30,646 nt of DNA, taken from positions 1 through 30,646 of IMG/VR virus record IMGVR_UViG_3300023170_000117, one strand, 5' to 3'. Source of the stretch: a virus. The notes under the pieces are model-generated. The model saw only the letters and a list, made by a program, of their open reading frames with translations, was not told the origin of the DNA and ran no database searches. A program made the position numbers and the translations under genes. Below, one piece after another: positions 2,072 through 30,646 of the stretch; the stretch's first letter is position 1; the number at the start of each line of letters is the position of its first letter.

Positions 2072-2171
2072 TATTGTTCCTTAAAATTCTAACTTTTTGT
2101 ATTTAGCAAAAAAGCAGGAGGGATAGTCCGTTCTGTTGCCCGGTGGACTATGCCGCGGAGTTCACAACTTA

Positions 2172-2252
2172 TTAGGCTGCGAGTAATTCACCTTCACTAG
2201 CCATTGACATGTCTAATGAAGTAAATGCTCCAGGTACAAAATTTTCGTTTGC
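2172..2252 (-). other. tmRNA-encoded tag reading frame
   Basis: Reading starts at the resume codon GCA and gives 26 residues, beginning ANENFVPGAF and ending SEGELLAA, then the double stop TAA TAA. The Ala-Asn-Glu-Asn-Phe start and the C-terminal Leu-Leu-Ala-Ala match tag signals recognised by the SspB/ClpXP degradation system. The tag is clearly longer than the 10-residue E. coli tag. Confidence 0.88.
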
Positions 2253-2359
2253 ACTTATCAAAGTTTCTTGCATTAACCGAGCTTGCTCCGGATAACTCAG
2301 CATCCCTACTTACTGCTTGTCGAATACCTGAACACCCCCGTATGTTGAAAAAAAATGTG

Positions 2360-2421
2360 TGGTGGAGGTGGCCGGAATCGAACCGGCGTCCAAGTTCAGC
2401 TTTTGTTCAGCGTCATCGTTA
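2360..2421 (-). other. ssrA: tmRNA acceptor piece
   Basis: This is the 3' half of the tRNA-like domain. It holds the P2 3' strand (GCUGAACUU, which can pair with AAGCAGU of the coding piece around an AA bulge), the T arm, the acceptor strand CACCUCC, discriminator A and encoded CCA. The 5' boundary is uncertain. It abuts or overlaps the stop codon of the 34-aa gene at 2422. Confidence 0.75.
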
Positions 2422-2526
2422 TTAGTTTAGATCAGGTACGTGTAAAGCAATTTCTGCCGACCAAAGTATTATGTATATAATAAACATACCGAATAACCAA
2501 ATAGCCAAGTTTTTACCGTCACGCAT
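2422..2526 (-). CDS. 34-aa single-pass membrane mini-protein
   Basis: A short ORF with start ATG CGT GAC GGT and a good TAGGAG ribosome site 5-6 nt upstream. It has a charged N-terminus (MRDGKN), one hydrophobic segment of about 20 residues (LAIWLFGMFIIYIILWSAEI) and a polar tail ending in VPDLN. The start lies 14 nt after the stop of the cysteine-rich mini-gene, so they look co-translated. Its stop sits at the predicted 5' end of the tmRNA acceptor piece. The function is unknown. A small phage membrane peptide could act in lysis or exclusion, but nothing in the sequence decides this. Confidence 0.6.
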   Translation of the reverse strand: MRDGKNLAIWLFGMFIIYIILWSAEIALHVPDLN

Positions 2527-2540
2527 CTTAATCTCCTACG

Positions 2541-2621
2541 TTAGCAGCCGCACTCTTTGCAATTAGGTTTACAGTCTTTGCAGTTGCACGGATCGCATTT
2601 ACAGTTTGGATTATTACACAT
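2541..2621 (-). CDS. 26-aa cysteine-rich metallothionein-like mini-protein
   Basis: Nine of 26 residues are cysteine (positions 2, 7, 9, 12, 14, 17, 21, 24 and 26), with three CxC pairs (CKC, CNC, CGC) and CxxC spacings; Lys, Asn, Asp and Pro fill the rest. The start has an ideal AAGGAG ribosome site 6 nt or so upstream of ATG, which supports a real gene despite its size. The pattern is that of metal-thiolate clusters in metallothioneins. Metal binding (Zn, Cu or Cd) is inferred; a redox or structural role is also possible. It lies in a run of mini-genes just upstream of the tmRNA. Confidence 0.7.
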   Translation of the reverse strand: MCNNPNCKCDPCNCKDCKPNCKECGC

Positions 2622-18430: not shown

Positions 18431-19360
18431 CTACACAAAAAGGCTACTAATAGATTCCTCATTAGTAACTCGACGGATAGCTTCTCCAAATAAATTTGCA
18501 ACACTTACCTGTCTTACCCTACAACCATCTTCACAGTGATCTGCAATCGTATCAGTGATAACTAGCTCAGTTAAAACGCTTTCTCTAACCCTGATACAGG
18601 CACTTCGACTTAGCACACCATGTGTAATATAGGCTTTTACATCAATCGCACCTGCGTCCATAATAGCCTTTGCAGCATTGCATAAGGTACCTCCACTGTC
18701 TACGATATCATCTACTAGGATAGCATGCCGGCCTTCCACATCGCCAATTAAATGCATTACTTCACTCTTACCAGCCGCAGGTCTGCGCTTGTCAACAATA
18801 GCAATGTTACCATGGAAAGCGTCTGCAAACTTACGAGCACGGACAGCACCGCCTGCGTCTGGACTTACAAACACATATTCACTACTGTCTTTTTGATGTT
18901 CCTTAATATCTCTTGCAAAGATAATCCTACTAGTAAGATCGTCAACAGGAATATCAAAGAAGCCTTGTATCTGTCCTGCATGTAAATCCATAGTAAGTAC
19001 ACGGTCAGCACCTGCTGTGGTAAGTAGGTCAGCAACTAGCTTTGCTGTAATGGGTGTGCGGCTTGCACTCTTGCGATCTTGTCTAGCATATCCAAAATAA
19101 GGTATAACTGCTGTAATTCGTTGTGCAGAACTACGTTTAGCTGCATCAATCATAACCATGAGTTCCATTAGGTTATCGTTAACTGGAGTATTTGTTGATT
19201 GGATTATAAAAACATCTTCTCCTCGGATATTTTCTAAGAATTCTACAGAAGTTTCTCCGTCTGAAAACCTGTCAATCTTAGCCGGTACAAGTGTACTAAA
19301 ACTATGCTCTGCAATTGCGTTTGCAAGAGGCTGATTTGAATTTCCTGCGATTAGTTTCAT
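18431..19360 (-). CDS. prs: Ribose-phosphate pyrophosphokinase (PRPP synthetase)
   Basis: 309 aa, full length for bacterial class I Prs. It makes PRPP from ribose-5-phosphate and ATP, the precursor for purines, pyrimidines and NAD. Landmarks: the opening MKLIAGNSN and GEDVFIIQS; the flexible-loop Y-F-G-Y-A-R-Q-D-R-K; D-L-H-A-G-Q-I-Q-G-F-F-D; and the PRPP loop V-D-D-I-V-D-S-G-G-T-L. The opening MKLIAGNSNQPLA and the ITAVIPYFGYARQDRK block look alphaproteobacterial. Compared with the core, the middle and C-terminus are more divergent, for example KDSSEYVF and DHCEDGCRVRQV. It has a sigma70-like promoter of its own. Confidence 0.95.
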   Translation of the reverse strand: MKLIAGNSNQPLANAIAEHSFSTLVPAKIDRFSDGETSVEFLENIRGEDVFIIQSTNTPVNDNLMELMVMIDAAKRSSAQRITAVIPYFGYARQDRKSASRTPITAKLVADLLTTAGADRVLTMDLHAGQIQGFFDIPVDDLTSRIIFARDIKEHQKDSSEYVFVSPDAGGAVRARKFADAFHGNIAIVDKRRPAAGKSEVMHLIGDVEGRHAILVDDIVDSGGTLCNAAKAIMDAGAIDVKAYITHGVLSRSACIRVRESVLTELVITDTIADHCEDGCRVRQVSVANLFGEAIRRVTNEESISSLFV

Positions 19361-29074: not shown

Positions 29075-29995
29075 TCACATTAATATAATTTCACCTTTAA
29101 TGCTGTCTTCAAACGCAGGAAACAGTTCTTCATTTAATTGGTCTTGTAAGTCTTCTATGTAACCTTCTAGGATACTTTTATCCATATCAGTTAGCTCTTG
29201 CTCATTGCGTGGGTTAGGTGCTTTGGTTACATTTTCAATATCAAGTGCGTCAGGCGCTCGTAATTGCACTGCACCTCTGTTAAGATACTGTGCCCACATT
29301 TCATATATGCCTTCGTATCTGTCTCTCACAACACCTTTCCTTGCGCTACCTGTAGTCATTATCTTTTGCAATCCGTAGTCAGCCCATTTAGCTTGCTTGT
29401 CATCTAACATCTTGTTAGGATTCTTAGGATTGTGCTGTAGGTCAACACCGAAGTTACCAAATATATTATGTAGTCCTTCAAACACTGCTGTTACAATCGC
29501 AGAATAAGCAGGATTCTCTTTTCCTTGTGTCGTCCTGCTGCCATGACCTAGTCTGTGTAACAACATCCATCCACTCACTGCTATCCAATTATCTGCTGCA
29601 TTACCTAGGAAGAACACAACAGTTTTATCTTTGTGCTGCGGAGTCCTTGTCATTGTTTCAGCATCTACCACACCCATCTCAACTAACTGTTCAAACCCTT
29701 CTTCAAACTCTTGGAATAAGTCGTCTACTGTTACAACACCTCTTTCCATAATTTCCGGATTATATGTAGCTTCCCCTGATACAGGAATTAGGATGTAATC
29801 GTTCTTAGTTTTGCTCCAGCTCTTGTAAACTTTCTGTTTCCATTGCGGATTAAAGATCTTTTTCTTTTCTCCTGCTTTCCAAGGCTCTTCATACTCATCA
29901 CCCCACTCGTCTTCATGATCATAATCCCAGTCGCCCATTGGTTGGAAATCACTAATAGGAGCTTCCTTAATCCTTCTAAATTCTTTGAATCTCAC
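29075..29995 (-). CDS. Internal virion protein with capsid-targeting-like N-terminus and HxxxH motif
   Basis: 306 aa from a GTG start with AAGGA upstream. It begins MRFKEFRRIKE-APISDF, ending in I-K-E before Ala. The middle contains W-M-L-L-H-R-L-G-H-G (near residue 147), which looks like a zinc metalloprotease HExxH in which Glu is replaced by Arg, and a later E-M-W-A-Q-Y that could be the third-ligand region. If it binds zinc, it is probably not a classic protease. It is first in the minus-strand run and divergent from ALAS. Confidence 0.55.
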   Translation of the reverse strand: MRFKEFRRIKEAPISDFQPMGDWDYDHEDEWGDEYEEPWKAGEKKKIFNPQWKQKVYKSWSKTKNDYILIPVSGEATYNPEIMERGVVTVDDLFQEFEEGFEQLVEMGVVDAETMTRTPQHKDKTVVFFLGNAADNWIAVSGWMLLHRLGHGSRTTQGKENPAYSAIVTAVFEGLHNIFGNFGVDLQHNPKNPNKMLDDKQAKWADYGLQKIMTTGSARKGVVRDRYEGIYEMWAQYLNRGAVQLRAPDALDIENVTKAPNPRNEQELTDMDKSILEGYIEDLQDQLNEELFPAFEDSIKGEIILM

Positions 29996-30019
29996 AGCTT
30001 GTCCTTTTATTATTTCTTG

Positions 30020-30037
30020 TTTACATATTTATGTAAA
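30020..30037. promoter_or_regulatory. 18-bp palindrome in the divergent promoter region
   Basis: TTTACATA-TT-TATGTAAA is a perfect 8-bp inverted repeat with a 2-bp centre, in the 49 nt between ALAS and the 306-aa gene. It includes CATAAATA on the minus strand (30033-30026), a late-type box for the minus-strand genes. It looks like an operator, but no matching regulator is in the window. Confidence 0.45.
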
Positions 30038-30044
30038 TAGCAGT

Positions 30045-30646
30045 ATGATAGATAAAAAGCCGTTTCATGATACAATACAAGCACTAAAACAACAGGGTAG
30101 ATATCGTGTGTTTAACGATATTGTACGTGAACGAGGAGACTTCCCCCGTGCCATTTGGTATGGACCGTACGCTATTAAAACAGTTGTAAACTGGTGTAGC
30201 AACGACTATCTTGGCATGGGGCAGAACAAAGTTGTAATAGATGCTATGCACACTGCACTTGATCAAACAGGCAGTGGCAGTGGAGGAACTCGTAACATTG
30301 GAGGCACTAGTCACTATCATGTTGCGTTAGAAAAACAATTAGCCATGCTCCATCGGAAGGAACGGGGGCTGTTGTTTACGTCCGCTTATGTCGCAAATGA
30401 ATGGACGCTGATCGCCTTAACCAAAATCATACCCGACCTAGTATTCCTAAGTGATAGCAAGAATCACGCATCCCTTATCCAAGGGATACGGCATAGTGGG
30501 GCTCCCAAACGGATTTGGCAGCATAATGATATGGACGATCTGGAACGTGCATTAAAAGACTTCCCTAACAGCACGCCTTGCATCGTGTTCGAATCCGTGT
30601 ATAGCATGGATGGAGATGTGTCACCAATGCACGACATTTGCGACCT
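30045..30646 (+). CDS. hemA: 5-aminolevulinate synthase, partial
   Basis: The first 200 codons are present; the gene runs off the right edge, and no frame break is seen. ALAS condenses glycine and succinyl-CoA to 5-aminolevulinate with PLP, the committed step of haem synthesis in alphaproteobacteria. Seen in order: R-Y-R-V-F-N-D-I, W-C-S-N-D-Y-L-G-M-G, G-S-G-G-T-R-N-I-G-G-T-S-H, L-F-T-S-A-Y-V-A-N, S-D-S-K-N-H-A-S-L-I-Q-G-I-R, and F-E-S-V-Y-S-M-D-G-D. T-R-N-I separates ALAS from biotin and lipid relatives. The PLP lysine lies beyond the edge. GC rises visibly toward the edge, hinting at recent gain. It has no obvious ribosome site. Confidence 0.9.
   Translation, partial: MIDKKPFHDTIQALKQQGRYRVFNDIVRERGDFPRAIWYGPYAIKTVVNWCSNDYLGMGQNKVVIDAMHTALDQTGSGSGGTRNIGGTSHYHVALEKQLAMLHRKERGLLFTSAYVANEWTLIALTKIIPDLVFLSDSKNHASLIQGIRHSGAPKRIWQHNDMDDLERALKDFPNSTPCIVFESVYSMDGDVSPMHDICD

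Follow-up and report, generated by a model that had tools for sequence, protein, structure and literature searches.

A circularly permuted two-piece tmRNA with a 26-residue tag in a T4-like phage contig

Permuted two-piece tmRNAs have already been described in phages. The Methylophilales phage Melnitz carries a published ssrA of this kind, and in a survey of phage tmRNAs ARAGORN assigned 53 of 133 distinct structures to the two-piece class, 50 of the 53 being marine or aquatic (PMC9004378, 2022). Melnitz (MZ577097) and the Pelagibacter phage Mosig (MT647606) are marine, T4-like members of the Kyanoviridae (PMC9004378). We analyzed a window of 30,646 bases, a whole IMG/VR viral record, which like these two phages contains a permuted gene, although its score with the alpha-type model is marginal. 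It differs from them in its tag, with 26 residues vs 14 in Melnitz (ANDNYVPVDYALAA) and 9 in Mosig (GEDNFALAA), and in its position, which is the nrdAB-PAAR side rather than the gp33/gp59/thyX side at which both ssrA genes lie. A further difference is that Melnitz has a glutamine riboswitch 3' of ssrA, whereas the Rfam cmscan reported none in the window.

Among bacterial systems, the Caulobacter-type alphaproteobacterial tmRNA (RF01849 / RF04321) resembles the window in gene order, acceptor and T arm, and shares with it the resume context ATAAGTGCAAACGA and the 3' GGCAACAGAA loop; the window departs from it in its 26-codon tag, its short spacer and a score that barely clears the alpha threshold. 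One-piece tmRNAs also occur in phage genomes, as in Bxz1-type mycobacteriophages and Bacillus phage G, and these are not known to have the permuted two-piece form. Mycobacteriophage DS6A, unlike the window, encodes a form that consists of the tRNA-like domain and has no coding part (PMC4131195). Given Melnitz and the 53 published two-piece types, the tmRNA of the window has published precedents, and the remark in a first-pass annotation of this DNA that it knew of no well-described phage case of the permuted form is corrected by that literature (PMC9004378). A permuted phage tmRNA is thus not new in kind; the noteworthy variant is the long tag and its recurrence. The first-pass annotation listed a tag frame but made no remark on its 26 residues, the most unusual feature of the locus.

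Architecture and conservation of the permuted gene

Positions 2422–2123 (−) of the window are a circularly permuted two-piece tmRNA gene, as the first-pass annotation had proposed. When the window was searched against all of Rfam (cmscan), only two matches exceeded their curated cut-offs, and both lie on the minus strand where the first-pass annotation had placed the gene. The permuted model (RF04321, tmRNA_permuted) matched 2422-2172 (-) over its full length, positions 1-213 of 213, with 88.1 bits vs a cut-off of 47 (E 7e-16). The alphaproteobacterial model (RF01849, alpha_tmRNA) matched 2504-2122 (-) with 52.4 bits vs a cut-off of 50, and the first ~80 nt on the 5' side of this match are protein-coding sequence. 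Because 2504-2423 is coding sequence of a 34-codon ORF, with the last base of its stop codon at 2422, the RNA does not start there. A local scan retained a partial beta match instead of the alpha match (48.2 bits, below the cut-off of 84). The one-piece model RF00023, a hit to which alone would favor an unpermuted gene, had no match in the gathering-cut-off scan of the window and was also not listed in the E-value scan, which keeps the best clan member alone.

In the same Rfam search, the two scores were 113.4 and 106.7 bits for Melnitz, and for Mosig they were 93.6 and 67.6 bits. ARAGORN at default settings reported no tmRNA in the window; with a lowered threshold (-ps50) it called the permuted gene with the identical tag. 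This default rejection and the marginal alpha score together indicate a divergent tmRNA, and default ARAGORN, the tool of the published phage tmRNA survey, misses members such as the window clade. The assignment to the alphaproteobacterial form, also proposed in the first-pass annotation, is supported only marginally by the alpha score, although the GGCAACAGAA loop near the 3' end, which is conserved, agrees with it.

The acceptor piece extends over 2360..2422 (-), from the start of the RF04321 model to the CCA, and is nearly invariant in relatives. Its 5' end, placed approximately, shares ~1 nt with the stop codon of the ORF upstream, and its CCA end, read from the sequence, lies at 2360. The piece contains the 5' strand of the linking helices, the T arm (GCCGG TTCGATT CCGGC), the acceptor 3' strand CACCTCC and an encoded ACCA. 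It is followed by an intervening spacer of 20 nt (2340..2359, -) that is variable between hardly varying flanks and is expected to be removed. The coding piece of 217 nt (2123..2339, -; 3' end approximate), placed by the RF04321 and RF01849 alignments, comprises the acceptor 5' strand, D region, P2 3' strand, tag frame and 3' hairpin. It begins with the acceptor 5' strand GGGGGTG (2339-2333, -), which gives seven acceptor pairs (GC GC GU GC GC UA GC, the third being G-U), and the D-region sequence TTCGACA lies at 2324-2318 (-). The 5' strand of helix P2, CTGAACTTG, has a two-A bulge and is located at 2391..2399 (-) by sequence and P2 covariation; its partner on the coding piece is CAAGCAG (2319–2313, -). 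The acceptor stem (7 bp), the T stem (5 bp) and P2 are all paired in the window.

The resume codon GCA (2252-2250, -) opens the tag reading frame, ANENFVPGAFTSLDMSMASEGELLAA, whose 26 codons (2175..2252, -) were read from the covariance-model alignment and by ARAGORN -ps50. A double stop, TAATAA (2169..2174, -), can be read directly from the sequence; its second stop is replaced by TAC in some relatives. The 3' hairpin ATAGTCC...GGACTAT (2123..2151, -), supported by the covariance-model alignment and a predicted fold, has the loop ACCGGGCAACAGAAC, which carries GGCAACAGAA, the motif of the alpha model 3' end. Single-sequence folding of the pieces, including this hairpin, performed no better than shuffles. 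Acceptor stem, T arm, CCA, 20-nt spacer, resume codon and double stop all lie where the first-pass annotation had placed them, and our reading of the sequence puts the putative mature ends at the same positions, 2360 and 2339.

Comparison with other viral contigs supports this anatomy. Seven relatives differ from the window at 0–6 positions over the 282 nt of the mature pieces, the coding piece varies among relatives by 0-5 differences over 217 nt, and the spacer is variable in sequence and has a length of 16, 17 or 20 nt. The tmRNA is present in every clade contig that spans the site, many of the comparison contigs being short. More widely, 21 of 38 scored viral contigs from a pattern search had a permuted tmRNA above the cut-off, and dozens of IMG/VR contigs contain one. 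Across 81 distinct viral permuted tmRNAs the T stem is 100% canonical, with several pair types at 3 of its 5 positions, and the acceptor stem is 99% canonical. The first five pairs of P2 are canonical in 93% of cases over 59 distinct viral combinations, vs 75% (sd 1.4, maximum 79%) in 1000 partner shuffles, in which the 5' strand of one copy is set against the 3' strand of another and sequence relatedness is ignored. This covariation supports assembly of the RNA from two pieces.

Proposed function

We consider it highly probable that the locus encodes a functional, phage-owned two-piece tmRNA that is processed by the host, joined through P2, served by host alanyl-tRNA synthetase and SmpB, and used to rescue ribosomes with a 26-residue tag. 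In the proposed sequence of events, the tmRNA would probably be cotranscribed with two tiny upstream genes, and host tRNA-processing enzymes would excise the 16-20-nt spacer, leaving two pieces held together by P2. Once charged by host alanyl-tRNA synthetase, the RNA would be brought by host SmpB to ribosomes stalled on broken mRNAs; lytic infection should make such mRNAs plentiful. The nascent chain would then gain the 26-residue tag (27 with the tRNA-borne alanine), and its LAA-type end would be read by ClpXP, so that the tagged chain is broken down and the phage regains both ribosomes and amino acids. The long middle of the tag may alter delivery of tagged products to a protease, by adaptor spacing or through another protease. 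The ribosome-recycling role suggested in the first-pass annotation is plausible.

A search of 20 related viral records, fragments among them, found no SmpB, and as a control the same search recovered SmpB in 10 of 14 known genomes; host SmpB would thus be needed. Little experimental work has been done on the known phage tmRNAs. If a tagging RNA supplied by a phage has a changed tag, the question is whether it serves ribosome recycling only or also governs which proteins are destroyed, and in what way, and the short- and long-tag series in related phages offer a ready-made comparison.

Long tags and their possible meaning

The most common tag length in a database of 97,179 tmRNA sequences is 10 (PMC11915505). 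Relative to the Rfam consensus, the tag frame of the window has a 39-nt insertion that is in frame and amounts to exactly 13 codons (covariance-model alignment). The tag peptide, which we call tag A, is identical in 10 other IMG/VR viral contigs. Its C-terminal end, ...ELLAA, has the form of a small hydrophobic degron, and ~17 residues separate the ANENF start from LLAA. Among 65 distinct tags that we read, in a non-random sample of fetched sequences and by a procedure biased to short tags, 51 have 9–18 residues and 14 have 22–29, with none between.

The long tags fall into several groups: group A, the window clade, with 26 residues; group B, ANKKALGFADLTVGMSEMRLAA and its relatives, with 22–25; group C, ANAFKPEVTVPVSIFADAELVAA and one variant, with 23; group D, on a beta-type tmRNA, with 26–29; and group E, with 22. 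Members of groups A–D lie near nrdAB of T4-like phages, and group E had no T4-like genes matched nearby. ARAGORN calls the same long tags in groups D and E and in the majority of group B; its tags are shorter in L217 and L229, and the group D length is 26 by our reading and 29 by ARAGORN. The tag of L215, which we read as 29 residues, has an uncertain start. Long tags thus occur on both alpha- and beta-type tmRNAs, every group keeps an AA end, mostly LAA, and the middle sequences are wholly different from group to group. LAA is the ClpX-binding end of ordinary tags. Judged from these predicted peptides, it is the length of the middle, and not its sequence, that is common to several T4-like phage groups. 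Tags A, B and C had no match in an annotated phage collection by tblastn, a search of little power at such lengths. A host origin of the tag was considered and set aside, the sole pattern match in 84,980 bacterial and archaeal genomes (L146) being a chance one with no tmRNA around it.

A possible explanation for the extra length, which we put at somewhat short of even chances, is that this is an ordinary phage tmRNA in which drift has produced a tolerated in-frame insertion between the resume codon and LAA. This account departs from the function proposed above solely over the role of the long tag. It fits the retention of the AA/LAA end alongside middles that differ completely across groups, and related phages do well with tags of 9-15 residues (Mosig 9, Melnitz 14, L165 type 15). 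It sits less easily with the recurrence of 22-29-residue tags in several groups and on two types of tmRNA, and with pN/pS values for the tags, from small samples, of 0.26 (B), 0.30 (C) and 0.41 (D).

Alternatively, and we offer this only tentatively, as a reading that is less likely than not, several T4-like lineages may have independently lengthened the two-piece tmRNA tag to 22-29 residues, changing the fate of tagged proteins through a different protease, adaptor or phage-specific function. In laboratory DAS+4 tags, a changed end together with a four-residue insertion that separates the adaptor site from the ClpX site makes degradation SspB-dependent (PMC8138137), and the Mesoplasma florum ssrA tag is read by that organism's own Lon protease, not by ClpXP (PMC9097571, PMC8138137). 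M. florum, a Mollicute with a one-piece gene, serves as an analogy only for a possible long-tag effect. The M. florum tag has ~27 residues and is not known to carry an LAA end. If the lengthened-tag reading is true, phage trans-translation is more than a copy of the host's.

That the phage RNA instead acts as a decoy or inhibitor, titrating host SmpB or ribosomes and thereby blocking host trans-translation, strikes us as improbable. Such a role has been proposed for the tRNA-like-domain-only molecule of DS6A (PMC4131195, PMC11915505) and would agree with the lack of a detected phage SmpB, but here the mRNA-like half is complete, with resume context and stop in place, and the changes seen in related groups are synonymous ones that keep the tag peptide conserved, a constraint superfluous in a pure decoy. 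More doubtful still is the idea that the locus is a defunct, decaying copy of a host tmRNA: the score is low for the family and default ARAGORN misses the gene, yet in ~12 contigs all stems and the tag frame are preserved with hardly any change, while the spacer varies.

Phage setting and exchange of the cassette

The gene order around the locus is nrdA–nrdB–glutaredoxin–small gene–PAAR spike–Cys-rich 26-aa ORF–34-aa membrane-type ORF–tmRNA, and ~10 contigs, one of 117.6 kb, have it whole or in part. NrdA is nearest to that of T4-like cyanophages (71%), and the window contains tail-fiber, PAAR and exonuclease families. The nrdAB genes, PAAR spike, tail fiber and T4-like synteny bear out the phage setting proposed in the first-pass annotation. 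Directly upstream of the tmRNA, the 34-aa membrane-type ORF (MRDGKNLAIWLFGMFIIYIILWSAEIALHVPDLN; 2422..2526, -) is conserved in the clade, and its stop codon touches the tmRNA 5' end. The first cassette gene, a 26-aa Cys-rich ORF (MCNNPNCKCDPCNCKDCKPNCKECGC; 2541..2621, -) that is likewise conserved in the clade, has 9 cysteines and a metallothionein-like composition. No named phage matched the window DNA at E 1e-5; at E 10 the matches to named phages are 30-46 nt only, in the T-arm/acceptor part, and several hit sequences annotated as tmRNAs or tRNAs.

An aminolevulinate-synthase-like gene (29985-30644, +) runs off the contig end of this metagenomic assembly and could suggest a chimera or host DNA within a viral contig, but the gene order recurs in other contigs and the 117.6-kb relative holds a full-length copy (437 aa, 95% identical), which indicates that the gene belongs to the phage and leaves an artifact with next to no probability. 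Annotated phages hold distant homologs only. Viral genes of this type are known from aquatic phages, on contigs clustering with pelagimyophages (PMC11480375).

Divergence along the neighborhood is uneven. When the window is compared with four relatives (L121, L124, L155 and L149), synonymous sites of nrdA and nrdB are saturated (pS 0.73–0.79), whereas the Cys-rich and membrane ORFs have pS 0–0.19 and the tmRNA is almost identical. Sequences diverge again in PAAR on one side and, in most contigs, in a 469-aa gene on the other, with breakpoints that are not the same across contigs. L138 has the most similar backbone (nrdB pS 0.53), yet its small ORFs are more divergent. Our reading is that phages have recently exchanged the Cys26–TM34–tmRNA cassette, and the low synonymous divergence of the 34-aa ORF in most relatives suggests that it was exchanged together with the tmRNA. 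As to the origin of the cassette, the sequence evidence points to exchange between phages. Given such exchange, the clade-wide near-identity of the tag offers little support for selection on the peptide. Elsewhere in the window, a ribose-phosphate pyrophosphokinase gene (PHROG 619; 18431-19360, -) is 100% identical in the relative contig G012 (L158) despite the diverged nrdAB of that contig, another sign of exchange.

By eye, a candidate T4-type late promoter-like sequence, GCTAAATAC, lies directly 3' of the tmRNA (2096-2106, -), whereas several other phage tmRNAs have TTGACA...TTAAATA immediately upstream instead. A promoter-like site at 2638-2610 (11 of 12) was set aside as it overlaps the start of the Cys-rich ORF. 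The 160-aa downstream gene led to phages L125-L135, whose fetched stretches had no permuted tmRNA match and no other window gene. A related phage fragment, L016, has a closer NrdB (79%) and a beta-type permuted tmRNA (496-805, -) with the tag ANENFALAA; we dropped it as a short-tag ancestor because its tmRNA scores best as beta type. It indicates that alpha- and beta-type tmRNAs both occur in related T4-like phages.
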